From Rhizobium leguminosarum (lineage in GTDB: Bacteria > Pseudomonadota > Alphaproteobacteria > Rhizobiales > Rhizobiaceae), in assembly GCF_017876795.1 (NCBI RefSeq), contig NZ_JAGIOR010000002.1:248001-312000 (forward strand): a DNA stretch of 64,000 nt, written 5' to 3'. The position numbers and the translations under genes are program-made. Below are positions 610-20,148 of the stretch, in pieces (within the stretch, counting starts at the first letter, position 1; each line of letters begins with the position of its first letter). Below the pieces are notes generated by a model, which was given only the letters and a program-made list of their open reading frames with translations, was not told where the DNA came from and did not search any database.

Positions 610-738
610 GTAACTGGAGCAGATCTGGTGGCAGGGGGGATTGAACGAAGCCGCTTTCGCGGCATTTGGAGGATCTGATTGCATGAAGTGCTCTTGATTT
701 GAAGAAATGGGCTGTTTTGCCCAACCTTCAAACAGGAG

Positions 739-1605
739 ATGACGATGATGGAGATGAGCCCTCTACGCCGGCGGATGATCGAGGACATGACGATCCGCAA
801 CCTTTCGCCTGCGACGCAACGATCTTATTTGCATGCGGTGGCGAAGTTCTCGCGCTATTTCGGGCGATCGCCAGACCGTCTCGGACTGGAAGACGTGCGT
901 GCGTTTCAGGTGCATCTGGTGTCGTCGGGACTATCGTGGCCGGCCTTGAACCAGACAGTTTGTGCCCTCCGGTTCTTCTTTGGCGTCACGCTCGGTCATG
1001 CCGAGATACCGGAGCGCATTGCCTATGCCCGGACACCCGCCAAGCTGCCGACGATCCTAAGCGGCGACGAGATCGTGCGGTTTCTTGAAGCGGTTCCGAG
1101 CCTGAGAACCCGCACCGCACTGACGACAGCTTATGCGGCGGGGCTGCGCGCCTCGGAAGCTGTGCATCTCAAGGTCCGCGACATTGATGGCGAACGCGGC
1201 GTCATCCGCGTCGAGCATGGCAAGGGCGGAAAGGATCGCAACGTCATGCTGTCAGCGCAGTTGCTTGCGATCCTGCGGGTCTATTGGCGGCTGGCGAGAC
1301 CCGAGGTCTGGCTGTTTCCGGGTCGGGACGAGACCAAGCCCATCGACGTCCAGGTCCTGTATTCTGCCTGCCGTTCGGCGTGCACTGCTGCCGGCATCGA
1401 CAAACGGGTGACGGTGCATACGCTGCGCCACAGCTTTGCTACCCATCTTCTGGAAAGCGGAACCGACATCCGCATCATCCAGGTTCTGCTGGGCCACAAC
1501 AACCTGTCCACCACGGCGCGCTATACGAAGGTCTCCAACGCCCTGATCCGCAGCACGACCAGTCCACTCGACCGGTTAACGCTGGAGGTCGTGCCACCGA
1601 GTTGA
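739..1605 (+). CDS. IS91-associated tyrosine recombinase/integrase
   Basis: A 288-residue site-specific recombinase. The N-terminal SAM-like core-binding domain (LSPATQRSYLHAVAKFSRYF, about residues 19-38) is followed by a catalytic domain with the first Arg in YAAGLRASEAVHL, the HTLRHSFATHLL box, LLGHNNLSTTARYT with the second His, and the nucleophilic Tyr. All R-H-R-H-Y positions are present, so it should be active. An AGGAG lies a few bases before the ATG. It ends 12 bases before the IS91 transposase start, suggesting co-transcription. Integrases of this type accompany one IS91 subgroup; their role in transposition is not settled. An identical protein is encoded in the right copy. Confidence 0.88.
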   Translation: MTMMEMSPLRRRMIEDMTIRNLSPATQRSYLHAVAKFSRYFGRSPDRLGLEDVRAFQVHLVSSGLSWPALNQTVCALRFFFGVTLGHAEIPERIAYARTPAKLPTILSGDEIVRFLEAVPSLRTRTALTTAYAAGLRASEAVHLKVRDIDGERGVIRVEHGKGGKDRNVMLSAQLLAILRVYWRLARPEVWLFPGRDETKPIDVQVLYSACRSACTAAGIDKRVTVHTLRHSFATHLLESGTDIRIIQVLLGHNNLSTTARYTKVSNALIRSTTSPLDRLTLEVVPPS

Positions 1606-1617
1606 GGTTGCCTCGCC

Positions 1618-1813
1618 ATGGCGGCGGGATTTGAGGTGGCGGATATATTCCGCCGCTACGGGGGAGGATATCGTCAATCGTACGACGCTCATCTCGGGCG
1701 TGTCGAGCGCCGCGTTATGAGCGCGGTAGAGATGTGCCGGACCGCTCGGCTGGGTGGGCATGTTCATGAATGTCAGGATTGCGACGCGATCCGTATCGCC
1801 TATAATTCCTGCC
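1618..1813 (+). pseudogene. IS91-family transposase, 5' fragment
   Basis: This encodes the first 65 or so residues of an IS91 transposase (MAAGFEVADIFRRYGGGYRQ ... HVHECQDCDAIRIAYNSC), that is, the first half of its zinc-binding domain with the H-x-C-x2-C cluster. The frame then runs into the end of the RIT element at about 1808-1814 and stops shortly after. The rest of the gene resumes at 5147, starting with CRNRHCPKC, the second half of the zinc cluster. The gene is therefore broken between two metal-ligand groups. The fragment could be expressed from its own ATG but lacks the HUH catalytic domain. Confidence 0.85.
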
Positions 1814-1893
1814 TTATGGGCAGATCCAGTAATGGGGAGCTGGCGGCGACCTGACTGCTCTTTCACGCATTTCGCCGCCAGCCCGGCTCACCA

Positions 1894-2883
1894 TTACGAA
1901 GTGCTCTTTAGCAGTGCTATCAGCTTGTCGGTCGGCTGGAAGGTGCCGCGCCGCAGATGCGGTGGCACGATCTCTTCCATGGCCTCGAGCTTTTCGGTTG
2001 GATCGCCGCGTGTGTAGACCTCTGTGGTCGTCAGCGTGGCATGGCCCAGCCACAGCGATACTTTCCGGATGTCTTGCGTCGCCTGCAGGATGATCATCGC
2101 GCAGGTGTGCCTGAGCACATGAGGCGAGACGCGCTTCTTGGCGAGGCCTTGCTGCTGGCGAGCAGCAACCGCGGCGTGCTGCTTGAGCAAATAGGCGAAG
2201 CCCCATCGGCTCAAAGGTTCACCACGCGCGCTGACGAACACTTCGGGTGTCGCGACCTTTCCGCGAATGGCGAGCCAGGCGCGCAGTGCCGTGGCTGCCG
2301 GCTTCCACAGCGGCAGCGCTCGTTCCCGCCGCCCCTTGCCGACGACGCGTATGCTCATCGACGACATGTCGATATCGTCGATCTTCAGACCCGTCAGTTC
2401 GGAGACGCGCAATCCTGCACACACGGCCATATGCAGCATGGCTCGGTCGCGGATGCCGTCGCGCGTTGTCGGGTCCGGGGCGTCGAGCAGCGCTTGCAGC
2501 TCCTCGCGCAGTAGATAGGGAACGAGACGTGTGTCCGTCTTCTTGAACGGAATCGCCAGCACGCGGCGGACTTGATCGAGGGCTGCCGGTTGCCGGTATT
2601 CGAGGAAGCGGAAGAACGACTTAATAGCCGCCAAACGAACGTTTCGCGTCACGGCGGCGTTCTTGCGCTTATCCTCGAGATGCTCGAGGAAGGCGCTGAC
2701 CAAACCGGAGTCGATCTGCTCCAGCATCAGCTTGGATGGTTTACTCTTGAGCCTCGCAGCGGCGAACTCGAACAGGAGTTGGAAGCTCTGGGCATAGGAA
2801 TCGCACGTGTGTCGGCTGGCGCCCCGCTGACGGACGAGTGTTTCGCGCAGGAACGCTTCGATGAGGGGAGTGATCGGTGTCAT
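1894..2883 (-). CDS. RIT tyrosine recombinase, third gene (RitC-like)
   Basis: A 329-residue recombinase starting MTPITPLIEAFLRE. It has an N-terminal core-binding domain (about residues 8-110) and a catalytic domain with Arg in VCAGLRVSELTGL, the HVLRHTCAMIIL box, and LGHATLTTTEVYTRG holding the last His and the nucleophilic Tyr. An open frame continues further upstream, but the ATG at 2883 is preferred: it overlaps the TGA of the preceding recombinase (ATGA) and is preceded by GAGGGGAGG. It is last in the three-gene unit, so translation is probably coupled. All catalytic residues are present. The individual roles of the three RIT recombinases are not established. Confidence 0.88.
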   Translation of the reverse strand: MTPITPLIEAFLRETLVRQRGASRHTCDSYAQSFQLLFEFAAARLKSKPSKLMLEQIDSGLVSAFLEHLEDKRKNAAVTRNVRLAAIKSFFRFLEYRQPAALDQVRRVLAIPFKKTDTRLVPYLLREELQALLDAPDPTTRDGIRDRAMLHMAVCAGLRVSELTGLKIDDIDMSSMSIRVVGKGRRERALPLWKPAATALRAWLAIRGKVATPEVFVSARGEPLSRWGFAYLLKQHAAVAARQQQGLAKKRVSPHVLRHTCAMIILQATQDIRKVSLWLGHATLTTTEVYTRGDPTEKLEAMEEIVPPHLRRGTFQPTDKLIALLKSTS

Positions 2884-3785
2884 GGTAGCCTCCCCTCTGA
2901 CATGAACGCCTCTCCCGCCACGGCGATGTCGCGAACGAGGTCGGCGGTAGCCTCCAGGTACCAGTAGGTGGTGTAGATGTTGACGTGACCCATGTACGTA
3001 GCGAGCGCGACCATATGCGCACCGCATCGGTTTCGGCCCGTTGGACTGCCTTGTAGCGCCCGCACCGCGAACGTGTGCCGCAGATCATGCAGCCGAGGGC
3101 GCCGCGCCGACGTTGGCCGGATGCCAACTTTGCAGACCAGCCCGTCGAAGGTCTCTTTGACTGCGATGTAGCGCAGTGACCGGCCACGCGTGTCGGCGAA
3201 CACGGGATCATCTCCCGAGCCAGGTCCGCGGCGCTTCAGGTAGCGTTGCAAGCCCGCCGCCGCCGTATCGTGCAACGGCACGAGACGGGTCTTGCGGAAC
3301 TTGGTCTCGCGGATCAACAGGCCGTCGCTCGTTATGTCCGCGAACGTGAGCTTGAGTGCTTCGGAGATGCGCAGCCCGGTGGCCGCGAGCAGGGCGATCA
3401 AGGTCGCATACGTCAGCGAGCGCAGGCCTCCTTGAGGTCGAAGCCGGCCGGCGGCTTCGATCAGGCGACCGATCTCCGTGCCCGAGTAGATGTGCGGCGG
3501 TCGACGCCTTTTGCGGGCACCGAAGTGATTGGCCGGGGGCAACTCGTGCCGGACATCTTCGACGCGGATATGGCGTGCGAAGCGGCAGACGGCCTTCAGT
3601 CGAGCATCGCGTTGCGCAACGGACGGTCCGAGCGCGGCCCAATCGATGGCTGTTTGGGTTTGGACATACGCGTGCCCGCGCTCGACCGCGAAGGCGGCGA
3701 AGCTCTTGAGCAGGTACTCGGCATTCGACATCGCAAAGCCCGTGGCACGGCGCAGTGCGAGATAGGTCTCGATGGTGTTTAACAT
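2880..3785 (-). CDS. RIT tyrosine recombinase, second gene (RitB-like)
   Basis: A 301-residue recombinase beginning MLNTIETYLALRRATGF. The catalytic domain has the first Arg in LAATGLRISEALKL, an HDLRHTFAVRAL box and MGHVNIYTTYWYL with the terminal Tyr. The frame can be read from an upstream TTG, but the ATG at 3785 shares a base with the stop of the preceding gene (TGATG) and has GGAGG at the right spacing. It overlaps the next gene by four bases. Position 3657 differs from the right copy (17101), changing only a Thr codon's third base. Confidence 0.87.
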   Translation of the reverse strand: MLNTIETYLALRRATGFAMSNAEYLLKSFAAFAVERGHAYVQTQTAIDWAALGPSVAQRDARLKAVCRFARHIRVEDVRHELPPANHFGARKRRRPPHIYSGTEIGRLIEAAGRLRPQGGLRSLTYATLIALLAATGLRISEALKLTFADITSDGLLIRETKFRKTRLVPLHDTAAAGLQRYLKRRGPGSGDDPVFADTRGRSLRYIAVKETFDGLVCKVGIRPTSARRPRLHDLRHTFAVRALQGSPTGRNRCGAHMVALATYMGHVNIYTTYWYLEATADLVRDIAVAGEAFMSEGRLP

Positions 3786-5002
3786 CAGAGTGCCTCCGGC
3801 CAAGGCTGCGCCACCTGCTTCAGAAGAGTGACATCGGCTTTGGCGTAGTGGGCCGTCGTGTCAATGCCACGATGCCGGAGGACTAGGCCGATCTTGTCGA
3901 GCGGTACGCCATGGCGCAGCATCTCGGTCGCCGCGGTGTGCCGCAGGGCGTGCGCACCCTTGACGGGCGTCACGACGCCAGCGCGCTTCATAATGCGCCT
4001 GACCACCGAGGAGACGCCGTCGCCGTTCCGGAACGGGCGGCTGGGCGCGATCGTACTCAGGAACACGCGATCGCTTCGACAGCACGACGGTCGACATTCG
4101 AGATAGGCAGCGATCGCATCCCCGACGTCCTGGGGCAGCGGCAAGCGAACCTCATAGCGCGACTTGCCCGTGACCCGAAGCGAACCCGCCTGCCACTCGA
4201 TATCGATGAGACGGAGCTGTGCCACGTCGCCGGCCCGCAGGCCGAGGCGAGCCAACAGCAATACGATGGCGCGATCCCGCCGACACGCGCCGGCATCACC
4301 ATCGCAAGCAGCAATCAACCGGCTGACCTGTTCGCCCGAGAGATATCGCGGCATCTCGGCAAGCTGCCAATGGGCGTAGGCCGGAACGGCATTGTCGAGA
4401 TCGGCCTGGCAGTGCCCTTTAACGGCGAGGTAGCGCAAGAATGCCCGCAGGCTCGTGGTCATCTTCTCGATGGTGCCGCGCCCGCATGTGCTCGCGCGCT
4501 TCGTGAAGTAGCCGCGGATATCGGTGGGGCTCCAACGCGTCGGGTCCGTTCCAAGTGCTGCCATAATGCTGACTGCATCGCGCGCGTAGAGCCTTATGGT
4601 CGCATCGGATGCCCCACGATGCTTGCTGAGCCATGCTTTAAAGCCGAGGACCAACTGCGGTTCGGCAGGCCGTATCGCCGCGACGGCGCGCTCGCACACG
4701 CCTATTTCTTCGAGGTGCCGACGGAAGAGCCTTGCGCCGTAGATGGTGTGATGGTTGCGGCGGCCTCCCTTGGCGCGCGGACATCGGCACGTTCGTAGAT
4801 GCTGTTCGAACGCCGCCAAATCGATGTCGCTCACGCTTGCATCGCGCTCTGCCATGACATGGCTGACATGAGCTGCCGCCCGCAGATAGCGCACGGCCGT
4901 CTCGGGGCCATATATAGCGCGACGATCAGGATGAGACGCCCGTCTCACCTTGTTTGTCGCCGCGCATCTCCAACATGTTTGTCCCCGCTTGTGATCGGCC
5001 AT
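3785..5002 (-). CDS. RIT tyrosine recombinase, first gene (RitA-like)
   Basis: A 405-residue recombinase, the largest of the trio. After a basic, Cys-containing N-terminus (MADHKRGQTCWRCAATNKVRR) comes a core-binding region and a catalytic domain with LARLGLRAGDVAQL (first Arg), HALRHTAATEML (His-Arg box), and LRHRGIDTTAHYAK (His and nucleophilic Tyr). All catalytic positions are intact. It is the promoter-proximal gene of the three and its start lies about 85 bases inside the element's right inverted repeat. A cluster of Cys residues (RTCRCPRAKGG, about residues 90-100) is an uncommon addition for this family; no metal-binding claim is made from it. Confidence 0.88.
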   Translation of the reverse strand: MADHKRGQTCWRCAATNKVRRASHPDRRAIYGPETAVRYLRAAAHVSHVMAERDASVSDIDLAAFEQHLRTCRCPRAKGGRRNHHTIYGARLFRRHLEEIGVCERAVAAIRPAEPQLVLGFKAWLSKHRGASDATIRLYARDAVSIMAALGTDPTRWSPTDIRGYFTKRASTCGRGTIEKMTTSLRAFLRYLAVKGHCQADLDNAVPAYAHWQLAEMPRYLSGEQVSRLIAACDGDAGACRRDRAIVLLLARLGLRAGDVAQLRLIDIEWQAGSLRVTGKSRYEVRLPLPQDVGDAIAAYLECRPSCCRSDRVFLSTIAPSRPFRNGDGVSSVVRRIMKRAGVVTPVKGAHALRHTAATEMLRHGVPLDKIGLVLRHRGIDTTAHYAKADVTLLKQVAQPWPEAL

Positions 5003-5121
5003 CAGTGGCCGAGCAGACGGGGCAACACCGGCGGCATGTTATGAAGAGTGAGAGATCGACGATTCACAGGAAAATACTGACACCGCGGCCGCCAGCTCCC
5101 CATTACTGGATCTGCCCATAA

Positions 5122-5152
5122 GGCAGGTAATGGGAAATGCCCATTACCTGCC
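5122..5152. repeat. 13-bp-stem hairpin at one RIT end
   Basis: GGCAGGTAATGGG (5122-5134), loop AAATG, then CCCATTACCTGCC (5140-5152). It lies outside the 40-bp inverted repeat on one side only and overlaps the point where the IS91 transposase resumes. Its loop holds the ATG (5137) that opens the transposase 3' fragment. The same hairpin is at 15606-15636 in the right copy. Confidence 0.8.
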
Positions 5153-6129
5153 GCAACCGGCATTGCCCAAAGTGCCAGGGACAGGCGAGCCGTGACTGGC
5201 TTGCCGCGCGGCAGGCCGACCTTCTGCCGGTCGGCTATTTCCACGTCGTCTTCACCTTGCCGCGAGAGATCGCCGCAATCGCCTTCCAGAACAAGAATGC
5301 CGTTTACACGATCCTGTTTCGCGCCGTCGCCGAGACGCTGCGCAAGCTTGCTGCGGATCCCAGACATCTGGGTGCAGAGATCGGCTTCATCGCGGTGCTG
5401 CACTCCTGGGGACAGAACCTCCATTATCACCCGCATATCCATTGCATCGTGCCGGGCGGCGGGTTGTCGTTCGACCAGTCCCGTTGGGTTGCCTGCCGGC
5501 AAAGCTTCTTTCTGTCCGTACGGGTCCTGTCGCGTCTGTTCCGGCGGCTGTTTCTCGACGAGCTGAAGCAGGCCTACGATCTGGGCCAACTTCAATTCTT
5601 CGGCGATATCGCCGGTCTGGCCGATCCGCTCGCCTTCAATCGAACCATCAAAGCAGCGCGTCGCATCGACTGGGTCGTCTATGCCAAGCCGCCATTTGCC
5701 GGACCCGAACAGGTGCTGGCCTATCTCGGGCGCTATACCCATCGCATTGCCATCTCCAATTCCCGCCTCGTCAGCATTGATGGTGATCGCGTCACATTCC
5801 GATGGAAGGATTATCGAACGGGCGGTAGGCAAAAGGTGATGACGCTCGATGCCCACGAGTTCATCCGCCGTTTCCTGCTTCACACCGTTCCGGACGGCTT
5901 TCACCGCATTCGTCATTACGGCCTGCTTGCCAATGGCCATCGGCAACTGAAGCTGGACCTGTGCCGAAGCCTGCTCGACGTCTCGCCGCCGGAGCGGGTC
6001 GAAGAACCGGACGCAAAGCCACCACCTTTGGCGCACCGCTGCCCTTGTTGCGGCGGAGCCATGACGATCATCGGCGCGTGGACCCCGCTTCAGCCGGCCT
6101 GCCGGCCAGCATGGAACGACAGTTCATGA
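5137..6129 (+). pseudogene. IS91-family HUH transposase, 3' fragment
   Basis: This carries nearly the whole catalytic part of an IS91 transposase: zinc ligands CRNRHCPKC at the start, the HUH metal-binding motif in HYHPHIHCIVPGGGL (about residues 97-111), the catalytic Tyr region YLGRYTHRIAISNSRL (about 195-210), and a C-terminal RCPCCGG knuckle. The first 65 residues are cut off and lie at 1618-1813 beyond the RIT element. An in-frame ATG at 5137, in a hairpin loop, would allow a 330-residue protein lacking half the N-terminal zinc domain. No good ribosome-binding site precedes it. It may still be supplied in trans or be inactive; sequence alone cannot tell. Confidence 0.85.
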
Positions 6130-6446
6130 TCATATCAGGTGCGGCATCATTGCAACGATCAGCGTCGGCATGCCGAGAAGCCGCGGGGCGAGTGCTTTGG
6201 CCAATCGTGCCAGCACGATGTAATGGGCGACGTAAAGCGCAACAGCACCAAGGGTTCGGTCGATGCAAACCAGCCGACAGGGGCGTCAAAGACACCGCAA
6301 TGACCGGCAAGAATCTCCTTCCAGACCTGTCCACATGCTCCGCCAAGGCTCGACCCTGCCAAACGCCATCCACCGCTTCGGCTAAATCCCCATAGCGCCA
6401 AACAACCCGCGCCTTCGCTCAATCCGGCTTCAATGAGGTCCGATCA
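6130..6446. other. Non-coding remainder between IS91 and IS66 transposases
   Basis: About 317 bases with no supported gene. The position suggests the downstream end of the IS91 unit followed by the leader of the IS66 transposase (GAGG at 6435 ahead of the GTG at 6447). No terminal repeat of either element could be fixed here. Confidence 0.5.
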
Positions 6447-8180
6447 GTGAAGCCGCACGCTCAGCGCCCGGACCTCACAGAACCCTCCAGATTCACTTCC
6501 TTTATGACGAAGCGCCGCCTCCCCATGGCCGAGCATGCTGATACGCTGTCGCTGAAGGCGTTGCGCGAGCTCGTGACGGGTCTGGTGGAGCGGGCTGATC
6601 GGGCGGAAATCCGGATTGAGGCGCTTGAGGCTGACAACCGAAAGCTTCGAGAAGAAAACGACCTGCTCAGGGTAGAGAACACGCGGCTGAAGGTCGACAA
6701 CCAGCTTCTGCGCGATGAGATTGCGCGGCTTAAAAACCTGCCTCCACGCCCACCGTTCAGGCCATCGGGTATGGACCAGGCAACGAGCGACGACAAGGCG
6801 GTTGCCGGCAGCCGAAAGCCTGCGCGGCGTCGCGGGCCGAAGGGCGACACGGGGAGCGCCACGCGCGAAGAGGTGCTGCCTGCCAGCGTTCCACCTGGAT
6901 CGCGCTTCAGGGGCTACAAGGATTGCGTGGTCCGGGATCTGGTTGTGCGGGCCGAAGTGGTGCGCTATCGCCGCGAATGCTGGGTGACACCGGAAGGACG
7001 CACGATCATTGCGCCGCTGCCAGCAGGTACAAAGGGCGGCTACGGCGCCAGTCTGCGTCGCTTCTGCCTGATGCTTCATAGCCATGGGCAGGTCACAACG
7101 CAGCGATTGACGACCTTGCTGAACGATGTCGGTGTCGAGATTTCCAAACGCCAGGTCATCCGGTTTTTGACGCAGCGGCTGGATGGCTTTCATGCCGAGG
7201 ATGCCGCCGTGCTGCATGCGGGCCTGGTCTCGGCTCCCTTTGTCACGGTCGACGACACTGGCGCCCGTCATGCCAACCGCAATTTCCATACGACACAGAT
7301 CGGAGGCGAACACTTCACTGCCTTCCGCACGGCGCCGTCGAAGTCGCGGCTGAACTTTCTGGCCCTGCTGCGCGGCAATTATCAGGACTATGTTCTCAAC
7401 GATGCCGCCTTCACCTTTCTGGAAGACCGTCAGGTGGACCCCGCCCTTCTGGCGCGGTTGAAGACACGTCAACCGCGGCGGTTTGCCAATCAGGTTCCGT
7501 TTCTCGAGTATCTGGCCGCCAATGGTATCGACATCTTCGACAAAGAAATAATCCGCCCGTTTGCCGAGGCCGGCATCTGGGGCGCCATCCGCCATCATGG
7601 TCTGGTCGGCAATGCGGTGATTGTGTCCGACGATGCCGGACAGTTCCGCGTCGGCACCCATGCGCTGTGCTGGGTCCACGCCGAACGTTTGCTGCACAAA
7701 CTGATGCCGGCGACACCCGGCCAAGTACGGCATGTAGAAACCCTGCGGGATCTCATCTGGCGCTTTTACAAGGCCCTGAAAGCCTATCAGCGAAGACCTG
7801 ATCCCCGTGCAGCCCAAGGCATTCAGGCCCGGTTCGATCGGATTTTTTCCCTCCGCACCGGTTATGACGATCTCGACAAACTGCTGTTTCGGCTGAGCCG
7901 CCGCAAGGCGGAGCTGCTGCGGGTTCTGGAGCGGCCTGAAACCCCGCTCCATACCAATGCGTCGGAAAGAGATCTGCGCGGATTTGTCATCAAGCGAAAG
8001 ATCTCCGGCGGCACGGTCAGTCGCAACGGTCGGCAGGCGCGTGACAGCATGCTCGGCCTGATGAAGACCTGCCAAAAGCTCGGCCTGTCGTTCTGGCACT
8101 ATCTCGGCGATCGGTTGGGGATCGGTCACAAAGATCATCCTATTGAGCCGCTTGCCTCCCTGGTTGCAGCACGCTCTTGA
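6447..8180 (+). CDS. tnpC: IS66-family transposase (TnpC type)
   Basis: Up to 577 residues. It has an N-terminal leucine-zipper-like coiled coil (about residues 36-90, repeated ALEADNRKLREENDLLRVEN), a basic linker KPARRRGPKGD, and a DDE catalytic domain with Asp in VTVDDTGARHANRNF, Asp in VIVSDDAGQF, and Glu in NASERDLRGFVIKRKISGG. No IS66 tnpA or tnpB accessory gene is present, as in the IS66 subgroup that carries only the transposase, though loss through the IS91 insertion is possible. The start is uncertain: GTG at 6447 has GAGG eight bases upstream, while ATG codons at 6504 and 6525 lack one. The stop is 87 bases from the element end. Residue Arg here is Gln in the right copy (6814/13944). 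Confidence 0.88.
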   Translation: MKPHAQRPDLTEPSRFTSFMTKRRLPMAEHADTLSLKALRELVTGLVERADRAEIRIEALEADNRKLREENDLLRVENTRLKVDNQLLRDEIARLKNLPPRPPFRPSGMDQATSDDKAVAGSRKPARRRGPKGDTGSATREEVLPASVPPGSRFRGYKDCVVRDLVVRAEVVRYRRECWVTPEGRTIIAPLPAGTKGGYGASLRRFCLMLHSHGQVTTQRLTTLLNDVGVEISKRQVIRFLTQRLDGFHAEDAAVLHAGLVSAPFVTVDDTGARHANRNFHTTQIGGEHFTAFRTAPSKSRLNFLALLRGNYQDYVLNDAAFTFLEDRQVDPALLARLKTRQPRRFANQVPFLEYLAANGIDIFDKEIIRPFAEAGIWGAIRHHGLVGNAVIVSDDAGQFRVGTHALCWVHAERLLHKLMPATPGQVRHVETLRDLIWRFYKALKAYQRRPDPRAAQGIQARFDRIFSLRTGYDDLDKLLFRLSRRKAELLRVLERPETPLHTNASERDLRGFVIKRKISGGTVSRNGRQARDSMLGLMKTCQKLGLSFWHYLGDRLGIGHKDHPIEPLASLVAARS

Positions 8181-8267
8181 AGGCCACGGGTTCCTTCAGT
8201 GCCAGCACGCCAGCCGCTGTGGCACGCTGATTTTCTCAACACCGCCACCAAATGTGCCCCGCTTACC

Positions 8268-8275
8268 GTATGTCG
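8268..8275. repeat. 8-bp target duplication, right side of left element
   Basis: GTATGTCG, the partner of 602-609, directly abuts the right end of the left copy. Confidence 0.75.
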
Positions 8276-8489
8276 ACGGGTTCAATTTTGGAGTGCGGCA
8301 AATTAAGTGCATGACCTAACAACGAAGTTTTCTACAATGGAAGCAAAACAGCATTTAATTTCCGTCACGAATGCAGCCAATTTTTTGGAGTACTGCCTAC
8401 TGTCGACGGGATCAGATATCGGCCGCGACAAATCTGCAGACGCAAAGGCGTGAAAACGAACAGATCAGAGCCATGTCCGGAGATTAATC

Positions 8490-10016: not shown

Positions 10017-10049
10017 TTGCGCTGCGCCGTCGATCCGGAACGGTTGCCT

Positions 10050-10299: not shown

Positions 10300-10347
10300 A
10301 GTTCACCCGCCTCGTCCTTCGAACCTCTTCGGGGCGCCTCAGGATGA

Positions 10348-11553
<1,206 letters not shown>

Positions 11554-11554
11554 G

Positions 11555-11621: not shown

Positions 11622-12483
11622 CCGGTGCATCTCCTCGTATTTCGCCACTGTCCACACCAGTTGCGGGGCGTGCTGAAGGGACTTCGCTGTCATCGTCTGA
11701 TTGCAAGTTGTCCGCGGACAACGGGCAATCAGGCAAGTGGACCTGAATTTGAGCTCAGGGGTTTGCCGCTTGACGCCAGACTTTGTCCGGGAAGAACCGA
11801 GGTCTGACCCGGTCGAGGCCCAACTGCCGCACGTTCATGACGAGGCGATCACGTGCATCGTTGTCGCATGGACCTGCATTTTGCATCGGTCGATGCCTGG
11901 AAATATCGGACCAACTGTCCCTCCGCCATTTGAAGTCGCATCCATCGTGCGATGGCTGGTCGAACTGCATGGCAGTCTCGCCGGCCTCTTATGCGGCCGA
12001 ACCGAATGATCATGAAGCAGGGGAGGGGCTATTCTTCAAGCCGCCCGGATGCGGTCCGCAGGCGAGACATTCGGGGCGCTTGTCGTGAATGCGTTGTCAG
12101 GCCGCGACCGCGATAATGAGATCTCGATCGCGGACAGACAATGCTTCGGCTTCCGCGGCGAGCAGTCCGGATGATGCCGGACGAAAGCAACTCCTTCGGC
12201 CGGTTCGGAATATTCACGGGCGATAACGAGGGCAGCTATTGCAGGTGAAAGCCACTGGCGTTATTGTTTCGTCGATCGCTGACAGGCGTCGTAGCCGCAA
12301 GATTGCCGACACTTGGCGCCGGAATTCGCTGCCTTTGAGACCGAAACGATGGTTGTCGGGCAGGCCTGTCGAAAAGATCACCCAGCCAGTAACGAAACTA
12401 AAGTTCGAATTCGCTTCCGCAATTGGAAGCGAAGATAACAATATCAACGGTTTACGATGTGGCAAGCGGTACCGTTCCTCCTG
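11622..12483. other. No recognisable gene; contains parS-like site 3 and a hairpin
   Basis: Several short open frames without family resemblance. Besides the palindrome at 11707, the only clear structure is a 9-bp stem at 12410-12433 (TTCGCTTCC, loop GCAATT, GGAAGCGAA). Confidence 0.5.
11707..11722. promoter_or_regulatory. parS-like 16-bp palindrome, site 3
   Basis: A third identical copy of GTTGTCCGCGGACAAC, separated from site 2 by the IS110 element and its flanking repeats. Removing that insert would bring the three sites close together. Confidence 0.6.
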
Positions 12484-12491
12484 CCGCTAGG
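12484..12491. repeat. 8-bp target duplication, inner side of right element
   Basis: CCGCTAGG, repeated at 20149-20156 on the other side of the right copy. It differs from the duplication around the left copy. Confidence 0.7.
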
Positions 12492-12577
12492 GTAAGCGGG
12501 GCACATTTGGTGGCGGTGTTGAGAAAATCAGCGTGCCACAGCGGCTGGCGTGCTGGCACTGAAGGAACCCGTGGCCT

Positions 12578-14311
12578 TCAAGAGCGTGCTGCAACCAGGG
12601 AGGCAAGCGGCTCAATAGGATGATCTTTGTGACCGATCCCCAACCGATCGCCGAGATAGTGCCAGAACGACAGGCCGAGCTTTTGGCAGGTCTTCATCAG
12701 GCCGAGCATGCTGTCACGCGCCTGCCGACCGTTGCGACTGACCGTGCCGCCGGAGATCTTTCGCTTGATGACAAATCCGCGCAGATCTCTTTCCGACGCA
12801 TTGGTATGGAGCGGGGTTTCAGGCCGCTCCAGAACCCGCAGCAGCTCCGCCTTGCGGCGGCTCAGCCGAAACAGCAGTTTGTCGAGATCGTCATAACCGG
12901 TGCGGAGGGAAAAAATCCGATCGAACCGGGCCTGAATGCCTTGGGCTGCACGGGGATCAGGTCTTCGCTGATAGGCTTTCAGGGCCTTGTAAAAGCGCCA
13001 GATGAGATCCCGCAGGGTTTCTACATGCCGTACTTGGCCGGGTGTCGCCGGCATCAGTTTGTGCAGCAAACGTTCGGCGTGGACCCAGCACAGCGCATGG
13101 GTGCCGACGCGGAACTGTCCGGCATCGTCGGACACAATCACCGCATTGCCGACCAGACCATGATGGCGGATGGCGCCCCAGATGCCGGCCTCGGCAAACG
13201 GGCGGATTATTTCTTTGTCGAAGATGTCGATACCATTGGCGGCCAGATACTCGAGAAACGGAACCTGATTGGCAAACCGCCGCGGTTGACGTGTCTTCAA
13301 CCGCGCCAGAAGGGCGGGGTCCACCTGACGGTCTTCCAGAAAGGTGAAGGCGGCATCGTTGAGAACATAGTCCTGATAATTGCCGCGCAGCAGGGCCAGA
13401 AAGTTCAGCCGCGACTTCGACGGCGCCGTGCGGAAGGCAGTGAAGTGTTCGCCTCCGATCTGTGTCGTATGGAAATTGCGGTTGGCATGACGGGCGCCAG
13501 TGTCGTCGACCGTGACAAAGGGAGCCGAGACCAGGCCCGCATGCAGCACGGCGGCATCCTCGGCATGAAAGCCATCCAGCCGCTGCGTCAAAAACCGGAT
13601 GACCTGGCGTTTGGAAATCTCGACACCGACATCGTTCAGCAAGGTCGTCAATCGCTGCGTTGTGACCTGCCCATGGCTATGAAGCATCAGGCAGAAGCGA
13701 CGCAGACTGGCGCCGTAGCCGCCCTTTGTACCTGCTGGCAGCGGCGCAATGATCGTGCGTCCTTCCGGTGTCACCCAGCATTCGCGGCGATAGCGCACCA
13801 CTTCGGCCCGCACAACCAGATCCCGGACCACGCAATCCTTGTAGCCCCTGAAGCGCGATCCAGGTGGAACGCTGGCAGGCAGCACCTCTTCGCGCGTGGC
13901 GCTCCCCGTGTCGCCCTTCGGCCCGCGACGCCGCGCAGGCTTTTGGCTGCCGGCAACCGCCTTGTCGTCGCTCGTTGCCTGGTCCATACCCGATGGCCTG
14001 AACGGTGGGCGTGGAGGCAGGTTTTTAAGCCGCGCAATCTCATCGCGCAGAAGCTGGTTGTCGACCTTCAGCCGCGTGTTCTCTACCCTGAGCAGGTCGT
14101 TTTCTTCTCGAAGCTTTCGGTTGTCAGCCTCAAGCGCCTCAATCCGGATTTCCGCCCGATCAGCCCGCTCCACCAGACCCGTCACGAGCTCGCGCAACGC
14201 CTTCAGCGACAGCGTATCAGCATGCTCGGCCATGGGGAGGCGGCGCTTCGTCATAAAGGAAGTGAATCTGGAGGGTTCTGTGAGGTCCGGGCGCTGAGCG
14301 TGCGGCTTCAC
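12578..14311 (-). CDS. tnpC: IS66-family transposase (right copy)
   Basis: Same 577-residue protein as the left-copy transposase apart from one residue: Gln replaces Arg in the linker AVAGSxKPARRRG (base 13944). The DDE residues and the N-terminal coiled coil are unchanged. The substitution lies outside the catalytic core in a basic stretch, so both copies may be functional. The start is ambiguous in the same way: GTG at 14311, ATG at 14254 or 14233. Confidence 0.88.
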   Translation of the reverse strand: MKPHAQRPDLTEPSRFTSFMTKRRLPMAEHADTLSLKALRELVTGLVERADRAEIRIEALEADNRKLREENDLLRVENTRLKVDNQLLRDEIARLKNLPPRPPFRPSGMDQATSDDKAVAGSQKPARRRGPKGDTGSATREEVLPASVPPGSRFRGYKDCVVRDLVVRAEVVRYRRECWVTPEGRTIIAPLPAGTKGGYGASLRRFCLMLHSHGQVTTQRLTTLLNDVGVEISKRQVIRFLTQRLDGFHAEDAAVLHAGLVSAPFVTVDDTGARHANRNFHTTQIGGEHFTAFRTAPSKSRLNFLALLRGNYQDYVLNDAAFTFLEDRQVDPALLARLKTRQPRRFANQVPFLEYLAANGIDIFDKEIIRPFAEAGIWGAIRHHGLVGNAVIVSDDAGQFRVGTHALCWVHAERLLHKLMPATPGQVRHVETLRDLIWRFYKALKAYQRRPDPRAAQGIQARFDRIFSLRTGYDDLDKLLFRLSRRKAELLRVLERPETPLHTNASERDLRGFVIKRKISGGTVSRNGRQARDSMLGLMKTCQKLGLSFWHYLGDRLGIGHKDHPIEPLASLVAARS

Positions 14312-14628
14312 TGATCGGACCTCATTGAAGCCGGATTGAGCGAAGGCGCGGGTTGTTTGGCGCTATGGGGATTTAGCCGAAGCGGTGGATGGCGTTTGGC
14401 AGGGTCGAGCCTTGGCGGAGCATGTGGACAGGTCTGGAAGGAGATTCTTGCCGGTCATTGCGGTGTCTTTGACGCCCCTGTCGGCTGGTTTGCATCGACC
14501 GAACCCTTGGTGCTGTTGCGCTTTACGTCGCCCATTACATCGTGCTGGCACGATTGGCCAAAGCACTCGCCCCGCGGCTTCTCGGCATGCCGACGCTGAT
14601 CGTTGCAATGATGCCGCACCTGATATGA
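14312..14628. other. Non-coding remainder, right copy
   Basis: Mirror of 6130-6446. No gene is supported. Confidence 0.5.
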
Positions 14629-15621
14629 TCATGAACTGTCGTTCCATGCTGGCCGGCAGGCCGGCTGAAGCGGGGTCCACGCGCCGATGATCGTCATGGC
14701 TCCGCCGCAACAAGGGCAGCGGTGCGCCAAAGGTGGTGGCTTTGCGTCCGGTTCTTCGACCCGCTCCGGCGGCGAGACGTCGAGCAGGCTTCGGCACAGG
14801 TCCAGCTTCAGTTGCCGATGGCCATTGGCAAGCAGGCCGTAATGACGAATGCGGTGAAAGCCGTCCGGAACGGTGTGAAGCAGGAAACGGCGGATGAACT
14901 CGTGGGCATCGAGCGTCATCACCTTTTGCCTACCGCCCGTTCGATAATCCTTCCATCGGAATGTGACGCGATCACCATCAATGCTGACGAGGCGGGAATT
15001 GGAGATGGCAATGCGATGGGTATAGCGCCCGAGATAGGCCAGCACCTGTTCGGGTCCGGCAAATGGCGGCTTGGCATAGACGACCCAGTCGATGCGACGC
15101 GCTGCTTTGATGGTTCGATTGAAGGCGAGCGGATCGGCCAGACCGGCGATATCGCCGAAGAATTGAAGTTGGCCCAGATCGTAGGCCTGCTTCAGCTCGT
15201 CGAGAAACAGCCGCCGGAACAGACGCGACAGGACCCGTACGGACAGAAAGAAGCTTTGCCGGCAGGCAACCCAACGGGACTGGTCGAACGACAACCCGCC
15301 GCCCGGCACGATGCAATGGATATGCGGGTGATAATGGAGGTTCTGTCCCCAGGAGTGCAGCACCGCGATGAAGCCGATCTCTGCACCCAGATGTCTGGGA
15401 TCCGCAGCAAGCTTGCGCAGCGTCTCGGCGACGGCGCGAAACAGGATCGTGTAAACGGCATTCTTGTTCTGGAAGGCGATTGCGGCGATCTCTCGCGGCA
15501 AGGTGAAGACGACGTGGAAATAGCCGACCGGCAGAAGGTCGGCCTGCCGCGCGGCAAGCCAGTCACGGCTCGCCTGTCCCTGGCACTTTGGGCAATGCCG
15601 GTTGCGGCAGGTAATGGGCAT
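14629..15621 (-). pseudogene. IS91-family HUH transposase, 3' fragment (right copy)
   Basis: Identical in translation to the left-copy fragment, with HUH motif, catalytic Tyr region and C-terminal Cys knuckle all present but the first zinc-ligand group missing. The RIT element lies directly upstream in the gene's reading direction. The shared disruption shows the RIT insertion happened before the 7.66-kb unit was copied. Confidence 0.85.
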
Positions 15622-15636
15622 TTCCCATTACCTGCC
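15606..15636. repeat. 13-bp-stem hairpin at RIT end (right copy)
   Basis: Mirror image of 5122-5152, with the same stem and loop. Confidence 0.8.
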
Positions 15637-15755
15637 TTATGGGCAGATCCAGTAATGGGGAGCTGGCGGCCGCGGTGTCAGTATTTTCCTGTGAATCGTC
15701 GATCTCTCACTCTTCATAACATGCCGCCGGTGTTGCCCCGTCTGCTCGGCCACTG

Positions 15756-16973
15756 ATGGCCGATCACAAGCGGGGACAAACATGTTGGAGATGCGCGGCG
15801 ACAAACAAGGTGAGACGGGCGTCTCATCCTGATCGTCGCGCTATATATGGCCCCGAGACGGCCGTGCGCTATCTGCGGGCGGCAGCTCATGTCAGCCATG
15901 TCATGGCAGAGCGCGATGCAAGCGTGAGCGACATCGATTTGGCGGCGTTCGAACAGCATCTACGAACGTGCCGATGTCCGCGCGCCAAGGGAGGCCGCCG
16001 CAACCATCACACCATCTACGGCGCAAGGCTCTTCCGTCGGCACCTCGAAGAAATAGGCGTGTGCGAGCGCGCCGTCGCGGCGATACGGCCTGCCGAACCG
16101 CAGTTGGTCCTCGGCTTTAAAGCATGGCTCAGCAAGCATCGTGGGGCATCCGATGCGACCATAAGGCTCTACGCGCGCGATGCAGTCAGCATTATGGCAG
16201 CACTTGGAACGGACCCGACGCGTTGGAGCCCCACCGATATCCGCGGCTACTTCACGAAGCGCGCGAGCACATGCGGGCGCGGCACCATCGAGAAGATGAC
16301 CACGAGCCTGCGGGCATTCTTGCGCTACCTCGCCGTTAAAGGGCACTGCCAGGCCGATCTCGACAATGCCGTTCCGGCCTACGCCCATTGGCAGCTTGCC
16401 GAGATGCCGCGATATCTCTCGGGCGAACAGGTCAGCCGGTTGATTGCTGCTTGCGATGGTGATGCCGGCGCGTGTCGGCGGGATCGCGCCATCGTATTGC
16501 TGTTGGCTCGCCTCGGCCTGCGGGCCGGCGACGTGGCACAGCTCCGTCTCATCGATATCGAGTGGCAGGCGGGTTCGCTTCGGGTCACGGGCAAGTCGCG
16601 CTATGAGGTTCGCTTGCCGCTGCCCCAGGACGTCGGGGATGCGATCGCTGCCTATCTCGAATGTCGACCGTCGTGCTGTCGAAGCGATCGCGTGTTCCTG
16701 AGTACGATCGCGCCCAGCCGCCCGTTCCGGAACGGCGACGGCGTCTCCTCGGTGGTCAGGCGCATTATGAAGCGCGCTGGCGTCGTGACGCCCGTCAAGG
16801 GTGCGCACGCCCTGCGGCACACCGCGGCGACCGAGATGCTGCGCCATGGCGTACCGCTCGACAAGATCGGCCTAGTCCTCCGGCATCGTGGCATTGACAC
16901 GACGGCCCACTACGCCAAAGCCGATGTCACTCTTCTGAAGCAGGTGGCGCAGCCTTGGCCGGAGGCACTCTGA
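15756..16973 (+). CDS. RIT tyrosine recombinase, first gene (right copy)
   Basis: 405 residues, translation identical to the left-copy gene at 3785-5002, with GLRAGDVAQL, HALRHTAATEML and the RGIDTTAHYAK Tyr box. The stop codon overlaps the ATG of the second recombinase (TGATG). Confidence 0.88.
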   Translation: MADHKRGQTCWRCAATNKVRRASHPDRRAIYGPETAVRYLRAAAHVSHVMAERDASVSDIDLAAFEQHLRTCRCPRAKGGRRNHHTIYGARLFRRHLEEIGVCERAVAAIRPAEPQLVLGFKAWLSKHRGASDATIRLYARDAVSIMAALGTDPTRWSPTDIRGYFTKRASTCGRGTIEKMTTSLRAFLRYLAVKGHCQADLDNAVPAYAHWQLAEMPRYLSGEQVSRLIAACDGDAGACRRDRAIVLLLARLGLRAGDVAQLRLIDIEWQAGSLRVTGKSRYEVRLPLPQDVGDAIAAYLECRPSCCRSDRVFLSTIAPSRPFRNGDGVSSVVRRIMKRAGVVTPVKGAHALRHTAATEMLRHGVPLDKIGLVLRHRGIDTTAHYAKADVTLLKQVAQPWPEAL

Positions 16974-17878
16974 TGTTAAACACCATCGAGACCTATCTCG
17001 CACTGCGCCGTGCCACGGGCTTTGCGATGTCGAATGCCGAGTACCTGCTCAAGAGCTTCGCCGCCTTCGCGGTCGAGCGCGGGCACGCGTATGTCCAAAC
17101 GCAAACAGCCATCGATTGGGCCGCGCTCGGACCGTCCGTTGCGCAACGCGATGCTCGACTGAAGGCCGTCTGCCGCTTCGCACGCCATATCCGCGTCGAA
17201 GATGTCCGGCACGAGTTGCCCCCGGCCAATCACTTCGGTGCCCGCAAAAGGCGTCGACCGCCGCACATCTACTCGGGCACGGAGATCGGTCGCCTGATCG
17301 AAGCCGCCGGCCGGCTTCGACCTCAAGGAGGCCTGCGCTCGCTGACGTATGCGACCTTGATCGCCCTGCTCGCGGCCACCGGGCTGCGCATCTCCGAAGC
17401 ACTCAAGCTCACGTTCGCGGACATAACGAGCGACGGCCTGTTGATCCGCGAGACCAAGTTCCGCAAGACCCGTCTCGTGCCGTTGCACGATACGGCGGCG
17501 GCGGGCTTGCAACGCTACCTGAAGCGCCGCGGACCTGGCTCGGGAGATGATCCCGTGTTCGCCGACACGCGTGGCCGGTCACTGCGCTACATCGCAGTCA
17601 AAGAGACCTTCGACGGGCTGGTCTGCAAAGTTGGCATCCGGCCAACGTCGGCGCGGCGCCCTCGGCTGCATGATCTGCGGCACACGTTCGCGGTGCGGGC
17701 GCTACAAGGCAGTCCAACGGGCCGAAACCGATGCGGTGCGCATATGGTCGCGCTCGCTACGTACATGGGTCACGTCAACATCTACACCACCTACTGGTAC
17801 CTGGAGGCTACCGCCGACCTCGTTCGCGACATCGCCGTGGCGGGAGAGGCGTTCATGTCAGAGGGGAGGCTACCATGA
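16973..17878 (+). CDS. RIT tyrosine recombinase, second gene (right copy)
   Basis: 301 residues, the same protein as the left copy; base 17101 differs silently. The ATG at 16973 follows GGAGG and is preferred over an in-frame TTG at 16955. It overlaps the third gene by ATGA. Confidence 0.87.
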   Translation: MLNTIETYLALRRATGFAMSNAEYLLKSFAAFAVERGHAYVQTQTAIDWAALGPSVAQRDARLKAVCRFARHIRVEDVRHELPPANHFGARKRRRPPHIYSGTEIGRLIEAAGRLRPQGGLRSLTYATLIALLAATGLRISEALKLTFADITSDGLLIRETKFRKTRLVPLHDTAAAGLQRYLKRRGPGSGDDPVFADTRGRSLRYIAVKETFDGLVCKVGIRPTSARRPRLHDLRHTFAVRALQGSPTGRNRCGAHMVALATYMGHVNIYTTYWYLEATADLVRDIAVAGEAFMSEGRLP

Positions 17879-18864
17879 CACCGATCACTCCCCTCATCGA
17901 AGCGTTCCTGCGCGAAACACTCGTCCGTCAGCGGGGCGCCAGCCGACACACGTGCGATTCCTATGCCCAGAGCTTCCAACTCCTGTTCGAGTTCGCCGCT
18001 GCGAGGCTCAAGAGTAAACCATCCAAGCTGATGCTGGAGCAGATCGACTCCGGTTTGGTCAGCGCCTTCCTCGAGCATCTCGAGGATAAGCGCAAGAACG
18101 CCGCCGTGACGCGAAACGTTCGTTTGGCGGCTATTAAGTCGTTCTTCCGCTTCCTCGAATACCGGCAACCGGCAGCCCTCGATCAAGTCCGCCGCGTGCT
18201 GGCGATTCCGTTCAAGAAGACGGACACACGTCTCGTTCCCTATCTACTGCGCGAGGAGCTGCAAGCGCTGCTCGACGCCCCGGACCCGACAACGCGCGAC
18301 GGCATCCGCGACCGAGCCATGCTGCATATGGCCGTGTGTGCAGGATTGCGCGTCTCCGAACTGACGGGTCTGAAGATCGACGATATCGACATGTCGTCGA
18401 TGAGCATACGCGTCGTCGGCAAGGGGCGGCGGGAACGAGCGCTGCCGCTGTGGAAGCCGGCAGCCACGGCACTGCGCGCCTGGCTCGCCATTCGCGGAAA
18501 GGTCGCGACACCCGAAGTGTTCGTCAGCGCGCGTGGTGAACCTTTGAGCCGATGGGGCTTCGCCTATTTGCTCAAGCAGCACGCCGCGGTTGCTGCTCGC
18601 CAGCAGCAAGGCCTCGCCAAGAAGCGCGTCTCGCCTCATGTGCTCAGGCACACCTGCGCGATGATCATCCTGCAGGCGACGCAAGACATCCGGAAAGTAT
18701 CGCTGTGGCTGGGCCATGCCACGCTGACGACCACAGAGGTCTACACACGCGGCGATCCAACCGAAAAGCTCGAGGCCATGGAAGAGATCGTGCCACCGCA
18801 TCTGCGGCGCGGCACCTTCCAGCCGACCGACAAGCTGATAGCACTGCTAAAGAGCACTTCGTAA
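17875..18864 (+). CDS. RIT tyrosine recombinase, third gene (right copy)
   Basis: 329 residues, identical to the left-copy gene at 1894-2883. The start at 17875 is supported by GAGGGGAGG and by overlap with the upstream stop. Catalytic residues are intact. Confidence 0.88.
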   Translation: MTPITPLIEAFLRETLVRQRGASRHTCDSYAQSFQLLFEFAAARLKSKPSKLMLEQIDSGLVSAFLEHLEDKRKNAAVTRNVRLAAIKSFFRFLEYRQPAALDQVRRVLAIPFKKTDTRLVPYLLREELQALLDAPDPTTRDGIRDRAMLHMAVCAGLRVSELTGLKIDDIDMSSMSIRVVGKGRRERALPLWKPAATALRAWLAIRGKVATPEVFVSARGEPLSRWGFAYLLKQHAAVAARQQQGLAKKRVSPHVLRHTCAMIILQATQDIRKVSLWLGHATLTTTEVYTRGDPTEKLEAMEEIVPPHLRRGTFQPTDKLIALLKSTS

Positions 18865-18944
18865 TGGTGAGCCGGGCTGGCGGCGAAATGCGTGAAAGAG
18901 CAGTCAGGTCGCCGCCAGCTCCCCATTACTGGATCTGCCCATAA

Positions 18945-19140
18945 GGCAGGAATTATAGGCGATACGGATCGCGTCGCAATCCTGACATTCATGAACATGC
19001 CCACCCAGCCGAGCGGTCCGGCACATCTCTACCGCGCTCATAACGCGGCGCTCGACACGCCCGAGATGAGCGTCGTACGATTGACGATATCCTCCCCCGT
19101 AGCGGCGGAATATATCCGCCACCTCAAATCCCGCCGCCAT
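18945..19140 (-). pseudogene. IS91-family transposase, 5' fragment (right copy)
   Basis: Encodes the first 65 residues of the IS91 transposase, identical to 1618-1813, ending at the RIT junction. It lies just downstream of the IS91 integrase. Confidence 0.83.
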
Positions 19141-19152
19141 GGCGAGGCAACC

Positions 19153-20019
19153 TCAACTCGGTGGCACGACCTCCAGCGTTAACCGGTCGAGTGGACTGGT
19201 CGTGCTGCGGATCAGGGCGTTGGAGACCTTCGTATAGCGCGCCGTGGTGGACAGGTTGTTGTGGCCCAGCAGAACCTGGATGATGCGGATGTCGGTTCCG
19301 CTTTCCAGAAGATGGGTAGCAAAGCTGTGGCGCAGCGTATGCACCGTCACCCGTTTGTCGATGCCGGCAGCAGTGCACGCCGAACGGCAGGCAGAATACA
19401 GGACCTGGACGTCGATGGGCTTGGTCTCGTCCCGACCCGGAAACAGCCAGACCTCGGGTCTCGCCAGCCGCCAATAGACCCGCAGGATCGCAAGCAACTG
19501 CGCTGACAGCATGACGTTGCGATCCTTTCCGCCCTTGCCATGCTCGACGCGGATGACGCCGCGTTCGCCATCAATGTCGCGGACCTTGAGATGCACAGCT
19601 TCCGAGGCGCGCAGCCCCGCCGCATAAGCTGTCGTCAGTGCGGTGCGGGTTCTCAGGCTCGGAACCGCTTCAAGAAACCGCACGATCTCGTCGCCGCTTA
19701 GGATCGTCGGCAGCTTGGCGGGTGTCCGGGCATAGGCAATGCGCTCCGGTATCTCGGCATGACCGAGCGTGACGCCAAAGAAGAACCGGAGGGCACAAAC
19801 TGTCTGGTTCAAGGCCGGCCACGATAGTCCCGACGACACCAGATGCACCTGAAACGCACGCACGTCTTCCAGTCCGAGACGGTCTGGCGATCGCCCGAAA
19901 TAGCGCGAGAACTTCGCCACCGCATGCAAATAAGATCGTTGCGTCGCAGGCGAAAGGTTGCGGATCGTCATGTCCTCGATCATCCGCCGGCGTAGAGGGC
20001 TCATCTCCATCATCGTCAT
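19153..20019 (-). CDS. IS91-associated tyrosine recombinase (right copy)
   Basis: 288 residues, identical in translation to 739-1605, with the complete R-H-R-H-Y set. AGGAG lies upstream of the ATG. With this copy, the window holds eight intact tyrosine recombinase genes in two sets of four. Confidence 0.88.
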   Translation of the reverse strand: MTMMEMSPLRRRMIEDMTIRNLSPATQRSYLHAVAKFSRYFGRSPDRLGLEDVRAFQVHLVSSGLSWPALNQTVCALRFFFGVTLGHAEIPERIAYARTPAKLPTILSGDEIVRFLEAVPSLRTRTALTTAYAAGLRASEAVHLKVRDIDGERGVIRVEHGKGGKDRNVMLSAQLLAILRVYWRLARPEVWLFPGRDETKPIDVQVLYSACRSACTAAGIDKRVTVHTLRHSFATHLLESGTDIRIIQVLLGHNNLSTTARYTKVSNALIRSTTSPLDRLTLEVVPPS

Positions 20020-20148
20020 CTCCTGTTTGAAGGTTGGGCAAAACAGCCCATTTCTTCAAATCAAGAGCACTTCATGCAATCAGATCCTCCAAATGCCGCG
20101 AAAGCGGCTTCGTTCAATCCCCCCTGCCACCAGATCTGCTCCAGTTAC

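Follow-up and report, generated by a model that had tools for sequence, protein, structure and literature searches.

The window analysed here is a 64,000-nucleotide stretch of Rhizobium leguminosarum (GCF_017876795.1, NZ_JAGIOR010000002.1, positions 248,001-312,000, forward strand). It has two copies of a nest of mobile elements, in which an IS66 insertion sequence contains an IS91-family element and the IS91 transposase gene contains a recombinase-in-trio (RIT) element. Copy A (610-8267, forward strand) and copy B (12491-20148, reverse strand) are inverted, with 2 mismatches over 7,658 positions (window 3657 and 6814 in copy A coordinates), and form the sole inverted pair of at least 200 bp within the window. 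Copy A lies between 8-bp repeats of GTATGTCG at 602-609 and 8268-8275, and copy B between 8-bp repeats of CCGCTAGG at 12484-12491 and 20149-20156. The left duplication of copy B runs to 12491, which places the exact element at 12492-20148 (7,657 bp) and corrects the start given in the preliminary description; copy A has the identical 7,657-bp extent (610-8266) and one additional C at 8267. The two exact 8-bp repeats are at the expected places, one of them displaced by one base, and each has an estimated chance probability of about 4^-8. The preliminary description was otherwise accurate on the inverted, nearly identical copies, on a separate duplication for each, and on the content and order of the parts (IS66-like ends, IS91 integrase, RIT, IS91 transposase and IS66 transposase). 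Among the 71 matches listed in its own genome (best 40 of 175 candidate stretches), the complete unit is seen at these two places only.

The outer shell of the nest is an IS66 element with a single gene. The left end of copy A (610-642, forward strand) reads GTAACTGGAGCAGATCTGGTGGCA...GGATT, where a plain IS66 copy of the same genome goes on ...GGATTCCGATTTTTTGT, and the remainder of the element (6494-8266, forward strand) ends in ...CGCTTAC. The terminal inverted repeats start with GTAA (GTAACTGGAGCAGATCTGGTGGC / GTAAGCGGGGCACATTTGGTGGC). The frame for the 577-residue transposase TnpC (6447-8180, forward strand) is open, and the first ATG of its homologues aligns at 6507. In copy B the remainder is at 12492-14264 on the reverse strand, with the TnpC frame listed at 12578-14311 and the homologues' start at 14251. 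TnpC matches PF03050 (E=1.8e-16; 60.8 bits, cut-off 23.1) and keeps the DDT and ER residues in common with distant IS66 transposases. It also matches NF033517 with E=4e-36, yet the 124.9 bits are under the curated cut-off of 180. Accessory tnpA and tnpB genes are absent, as seven of the eight plain end pairs are 1.82-1.83 kb apart, which leaves room for tnpC only; the eighth (L047) spans 2.2 kb. ISBst12 is a single-gene subgroup of IS66. The plain 1.83-kb copies in the same genome, which have tnpC only, are 99.3-99.9% identical to the right part of the nest's IS66.

The ends GTAA...TTAC and the 8-bp repeat were defined from other IS66 copies. When the element is taken to end in TTAC, an exact 8-bp repeat adjoins 6 of 13 end pairs, copy B included. 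One further pair has a 9-bp repeat, one (L009) a 7-bp repeat, and copy A an 8-bp repeat one base out. The other four (L007, L033, L034 and the R. beringeri nest in L060) have no repeat. On R. beringeri pRlX4 (L060:3001-9158), an IS66::IS91 nest is followed by 8 bp and then a plain IS66 copy, and close tandem IS66 arrangements also occur on C3 and C4 of the R. leguminosarum genome.

The IS91-family element of copy A (GAAC...CCAGATT; 643-6493, forward strand) lies at GGATT^C of the IS66 and carries the RIT. It encodes a 288-residue tyrosine integrase (739-1605, forward strand; PF00589, E=2.8e-41) and a transposase whose gene is in two pieces. The 5' fragment (1618-1812, forward strand) is cut past codon 65 (...IAYNSC). 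The 3' part (5137-6129, forward strand) encodes 330 residues with a Y2_Tnp domain (PF04986, E=3.3e-66) and takes its ATG from the RIT palindrome. The zinc-binding domain PF14319 (1.2e-15) matches only from profile position 51 because the RIT cuts off the front of the transposase. The match to NF033538 is 385.5 bits (cut-off 125). In copy B the IS91::RIT unit is at 14265-20115, the 3' part of the transposase gene at 14629-15621 and the integrase at 19153-20019, all on the reverse strand.

IS91::RIT is also found without IS66 at two places in the same genome, C1:4696706-4702564 and C5:40075-45989 (L003 and L004), which suggests that it is a mobile unit in its own right. All five copies of the close IS91 with a full-length left part carry the RIT, among the matches listed (A, B, L003, L004 and L102). 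In the loci examined, the 16 distinct left contexts of IS91 all end in GATT, 15 of them in GGATT, and the 15 distinct right contexts all start with ATTC; these counts exclude an unrelated match in each of L033 and L083. The predicted target of the element is GGATT^C, a motif also present at the left end of plain IS66 copies. GATT is present on both sides of IS91, which is compatible with a short duplication or a crossover overlap.

IS66 with IS91 at the same point and no RIT is found on plasmids of R. johnstonii 3841 (pRL7), R. beringeri, R. indicum and R. rosettiformans. Ends were paired in three of these relatives' nests, of which pRL7 alone has an exact 8-bp duplication (CGAATTTG, L031). 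A scan of genome contigs for the IS66-IS91 junction matched pRL7 and one R. leguminosarum contig. R. indicum and pRL7 are 96.6% identical in IS66 and 82% in IS91, a mismatch indicating that IS91 entered this IS66 site at least twice independently. A single ancient IS66::IS91 nest common to all species was rejected on the same values. IS66 and IS91 divergences are alike (92-95%) among the window, R. beringeri and pRL7, and common descent of the nest in these three is possible from the sequences. Copies A and B both lack 23 bp between two GATTC motifs beside the right end of IS91, a loss absent from all four other IS66::IS91 nests. Comparison with relatives suggests that each inner element favours certain insertion sites in its carrier.

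The RIT element of copy A spans 1808-5152, with core sites c1 at 1808-1813, c2 at 5122-5127, a 19-bp palindrome at 5128-5146 and c3 at 5147-5152. Its inverted repeats are 40 bp long and perfect (1808-1847 and 5088-5127). Three tyrosine recombinase genes, all matching PF00589, lie on the reverse strand: ritC (377 aa, 1894-3027), ritB (307 aa, 2880-3803) and ritA (405 aa, 3785-5002). In copy B they lie on the forward strand (ritA 15756-16973, ritB 16955-17878, ritC 17731-18864). The element thus has the three overlapping recombinase genes, the terminal repeats and the palindrome at one end by which RITs are recognised. It splits the IS91 transposase gene between codons 65 and 66 (SC/RNRHCPKC, where the slash marks the junction), and its palindrome supplies an ATG (window 5137-5152) in frame with the remaining transposase gene. 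This ATG is found in the R. leguminosarum genome and in Bradyrhizobium barranii and is missing in some relatives, e.g. L127 and L130; it is therefore no general device for providing a start codon.

The ritA gene also contains an in-frame miniature hairpin repeat of about 50 bp (TATAGCGCGACGATC...GTCGCCGCGCA; window 4913-4966 and 15792-15845). The repeat has at least 28 matches in the same genome, is missing from RitA relatives and is also found in two IS91 copies, where direct repeats of 6-7 bp accompany it. A further two loci, of 1.5 and 2.6 kb, have the same ends and 6-bp repeats, and one of them (L182) encodes an IstB_IS21 protein (PF01695, 2.9e-61). The common ends and the IstB_IS21 protein make the hairpin repeat look like an IS21-type miniature element.

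The preliminary description had proposed looking in relatives for the two target sites without the insert, and such sites are present. The joined flanks of copy A (site A) and of copy B (site B) were searched in 148 genomes of the genus, the source genome included, with scores for at most the best two candidate stretches of each. In the 147 other Rhizobium genomes, an uninterrupted alignment spans site A in 19 and site B in 5 (G517, G045, G087, G063 and G026), and all five also cross site A. Five relatives (G517, G045, G087, G007 and G040) were aligned at base level. Site B is gapless in G517 and G045 and has small gaps in G087, and the alignments of G007 and G040 fall short of it. At site B, G517 reads TGCCGCCGGGTGATAG against TGCCGCTAGGTGATAG.

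Two separate IS66 insertions are well supported by these sequences, because the duplications differ, the ends are of IS66 type and relatives are found without the insert. It is very probable that each copy is a single-ORF (open reading frame) IS66 holding IS91 in its left end, with the IS91 transposase gene holding the RIT, and that the whole 7.66 kb was moved by IS66 transposition at least once. Since the ends and the 8-bp repeat are known from other copies, the locus is best read as the outcome of IS66-type transposition of the entire nest. The RIT would have entered the DNA coding for CRNRHCPKC of the IS91 transposase, and IS91 would have inserted at GGATT^C near the left end of IS66. The IS66 transposase would have recognised the outer ends and, on at least one occasion, carried everything between them, 7.66 kb in all, as cargo. 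IS91::RIT would also have moved on its own, either by the shortened 330-residue transposase or by a transposase acting in trans. The nest was initially thought to have moved at least twice as a unit. The two IS66 insertions stand, but one whole-nest move suffices, because IS91::RIT could have entered an IS66 already present at one of the sites. That IS91::RIT is independently mobile, that both nesting sites are recurrent and that site A is hit by other IS66-ended inserts are points that the preliminary description missed.

Several observations weigh against transposition of the whole nest. Copy A has a single base separating the element end from the duplication; this base equals the C after the element end in copy B, but most of the copies compared have C there, so it proves little. 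Site A is contiguous in all five base-level alignments, with small gaps and a junction identity of 68-76%, and the target is not cleanly read. The preliminary description had proposed a search for further contexts of the unit, and no third one appeared. None of the 145 matching plasmid records has as much as 80% of the unit at a single place, and the complete unit is in none of the 119 other genus genomes among the matches listed (best two stretches per genome). Both alleles of the two A/B differences occur in other copies, which points to some exchange between copies. At unit position 3048, the G of copy A is also in L004 and the C of copy B in L003 and others; at 6205, the G of copy A is also in L007 and other species and the A of copy B in L009 and L015. 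A direction of copying between A and B was rejected, since both alleles are present elsewhere. Lastly, six further genomes (G056, G089, G017, G102, G023 and G005) have 0.8-1.6 kb of other DNA at site A, with the flank pieces 0.9-1.7 kb apart, and three of these inserts have IS66-like ends. An earlier IS66 insertion at this site is therefore possible.

The site A inserts differ among these six genomes. The insert of G102 (about 0.85 kb) has a right end matching the reference IS66 end at 22 of 24 positions (best of 200 shuffles, 17). Its left end scores 16 of 24, and its perfect 8-bp repeat, TGCGGCGA, is shifted by one base relative to the copy A target. That of G056 (about 0.93 kb) has ends scoring 20/24 and 16/24 and a near repeat, TCAGGCGAC / TCAGTCGAC. 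Left-end scores of 16 equal the 95% mark of the shuffles, so these ends rest mainly on position and repeats. The two inserts (L187 and L184, respectively) each have a different open frame and lie within 2 bases of the copy A site. In G005 the right end is IS66-like (19/24) and a tnpC fragment is present, the only tnpC match in the six gapped genomes. If real, the G102 and G056 inserts may be transposase-free cargo between IS66 ends; the insert of G102, having no transposase match, suggests that IS66-type ends move other cargo in the genus. Site A is, from these sequences, an apparent hot spot for IS66. The insert of about 1.6 kb common to G089, G017 and G023 (L185, L186 and L188) has no end scoring above shuffles. 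It contains a 486-residue frame that is RtcB-like by eye.

Gene conversion is an improbable origin of the paired nests. Two plain IS66 elements would have inserted separately, one would have gained IS91::RIT and conversion would have copied the cargo to the other, so that the nest never transposed whole. The highly similar plain IS66 copies in the genome and the attraction of site A for IS66-type inserts in relatives are both favourable to it, and A/B differences that are alleles shared with other copies are expected if copies recombine. However, conversion would have needed to transfer a 5.85-kb heterologous stretch with homologous flanks of 33 bp and 1.77 kb, and a full plain IS66 is at neither site in the relatives examined, the six gapped genomes having only the fragment in G005. 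It is very unlikely that IS91::RIT entered two IS66 copies independently at the same preferred site. IS91 does reuse the IS66 motif, as R. indicum and pRL7 indicate, but A and B have the same 23-bp loss, seen in none of the four other nests, and the same place and orientation of the RIT. Recombination in place of transposition, as segmental duplication or inversion, is less likely still. The copies are inverted and near each other, which speaks for it, but homology stops within 4 bases of the IS66 ends, and the same 8 bp on both flanks of each copy indicate that the flanks are unswapped. Inversion and segmental duplication were rejected on these retained flanks. A duplicated segment reaching beyond the IS66 ends, named at the outset as evidence against movement of the unit, was not seen.

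The position of the RIT within IS91 recurs in other genomes. In the R. leguminosarum genome, the RIT is inside IS91 at all ten places among the matches listed; nine junctions were read, several of them one-sided because the copy is truncated. Fourteen places with RITs of the same clade were taken from elsewhere, 13 hand-picked from the top of plasmid lists and one (G699) from a RitA search, with the near-duplicates H87, H91 and H94 left out. The hosts are R. leguminosarum Vaf10, Novosphingobium PP1Y, B. barranii, B. diazoefficiens pNK6c, Mesorhizobium AR07, Rhizobium T136, Rhizobium T1473, M. amorphae, Paraburkholderia hospita, Paraburkholderia PGU19, Caballeronia SBC2, P. phytofirmans OLGA172, Microvirga ossetica and G699. 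The RIT adjoins the IS91 motif SC/RNRHCPKC (codons 65/66 of the pRL7 protein) on at least one side in 13 of the 14, the placement in Microvirga ossetica resting on about 20 bases beside the palindrome. The pNK6c RIT is outside IS91 and has a look-alike, TGCCGGAACCAGCGCTG, adjoining one side. The interrupted IS91 fragments share 52-80% identity with the pRL7 protein, which argues against one recent inherited insertion. A partial RIT in L113 runs to the contig edge, and no site is readable there.

Pattern searches returned few genomes. The RIT end pattern matched 2 of 398 genomes of the phylum, and the left-junction pattern of RIT in IS91 matched 2 of 394 genomes of the family, the source genome included in both cases. 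The other matched family genome has three such sites (L099-L101), which were chosen by their IS91 letters and are not counted as evidence.

The palindrome also has a fixed side. Read in the direction of IS91, the left junction is CCTGC/CTTATGG and the right junction is ...CCATAAGGCAGG-palindrome-CCTGC/CGCAACC, both with variants. The palindrome lies toward the 3' side of IS91 in all 16 readable places, which include several related copies and are not 16 independent events. The rit genes are opposite to IS91 in eight of these (L001, L002, L003, L004, L125, L130, L148 and L131) and in the same direction in the other eight (L102, L103, L105, L106, L127, L132, L136 and L149). A simple reading is that integration occurs at a directional CCTGC core and is followed by inversion of the body between inverted cores. 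Homologous recombination across the 40-bp repeats would give the same inverted bodies.

A second clade of RITs is associated with IS66. Six more distant RITs were picked from the plasmid list. In Paracoccus AK26, Microvirga VF16 and B. barranii 323S2, the RIT is flanked by IS66 tnpA on one side and tnpB on the other, as it is in S. meliloti 1021, where an additional tnpA fragment lies in between; in R. binae it is beside IS66 tnpB. The RIT of Beijerinckiaceae RH AL1 (L152) has no IS91 or IS66 match. A RitB tree of 28 rows places the IS91-site RITs, among them pNK6c, in one clade (15 rows, support 100/100) and the five IS66-site RITs in another (99/96). The tree leaves out L112 (144 aa, too short), L064, L104-L106, L113, L120 and L131. 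A RIT search of the order matched 11 of 397 genomes, and eight RITs from it (L114-L121) have no IS91 or IS66 in the stretch, which is mainly one-sided; these speak against a general rule linking RITs to host transposons. From their sites and tree positions, lineages of RITs resemble parasites that target specific sites in other transposons. The fuller proposal, that the clade in the window is a dedicated site-specific parasite of IS91 that recognises the DNA for the conserved zinc-binding motif CRNRHCPKC, integrates at the CCTGC core and inverts its body with a fixed palindrome, with a sister clade acting likewise at IS66 tnpA-tnpB, has about an even chance of being right.

The window has other genes near the nests. 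An IS110-family transposase gene (10387-11553) lies between the two copies. A GNAT acetyltransferase gene (8-517) adjoins the copy A site; its product has a weak match to arsinothricin N-acetyltransferases, at 42.1 bits against a cut-off of 170. Relatives again have GNAT and methyltransferase genes as neighbours.

The inner element resembles the IS91 family in its Zn_Tnp_IS91 and Y2_Tnp domains and in having an apparently fixed target motif. Other IS91 targets are of the GTTC/CTTG type, and some IS91 members carry an integrase. The element in the nest differs in its predicted GGATT^C target and in a transposase gene split by a RIT. Tn5053-type transposons and RITs have different enzymes. Tn5053-type elements, which hunt res sites, are similar to the RIT in being specialised on sites within other mobile elements, but their target is a resolution site and that of the RIT is a transposase codon motif, as far as the excerpted text describes them (PMC7765201).

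The shell resembles tIS66 elements, which are IS66 elements with passenger genes, e.g. ISPa75 with fosZ, in its GTAA ends, DDE transposase, target duplications and internal cargo (PMC12888890, in the part covered). The same source bears on the initial view that an IS66 with cargo is unusual. Such passengers are already described there, so that view needs tempering, though the passenger there is an ordinary gene. ISPa75 has all three IS66 genes and one ordinary gene, whereas the nest has tnpC only and a cargo of two mobile elements. In a table on Paracoccus, two IS66 elements have the entry 8, under a column heading outside the excerpt (PMC3281130).

The RIT is similar to described RITs in its three overlapping tyrosine-recombinase genes, terminal inverted repeats and overlapping palindrome, as given in the covered parts of PMC3414803, PMC2864759 and PMC8138268. 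Single RITs within transposase genes are described in a Tn6049-like transposon and in IS66 tnpA of C. metallidurans (excerpts of PMC3414803 and PMC2864759). The difference here is that one clade recurs at one IS91 transposase position in alpha- and beta-proteobacteria, with both body orientations and a fixed palindrome. According to a table from 2023, the target specificity of RITs is "not formally tested" (PMC10214605, excerpt). The excerpts of RIT literature covered, which do not extend to the main 2013 work (Ricker) and the Sphingobium paper, state neither a fixed IS91 target nor an invertible body, and their sole match to IS91 is the word IS911.

We rate the nest itself as a variant of a known arrangement and the RIT target rule as the more interesting part. 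The nest is a natural record of a transposon bringing two other mobile elements to a new site. A defined target some 25 bp long, the three core sites and the two orientations of the body make the integration site and movement of the RIT testable. If the proposal for the RIT clade is true, inversion of the body may switch the host transposase between silent and readable states, RIT families would each be adapted to a particular host transposon, and nests like these would be a predictable outcome. If RIT lineages are tied to transposon families, RITs would be natural brakes on, or passengers of, those transposons.

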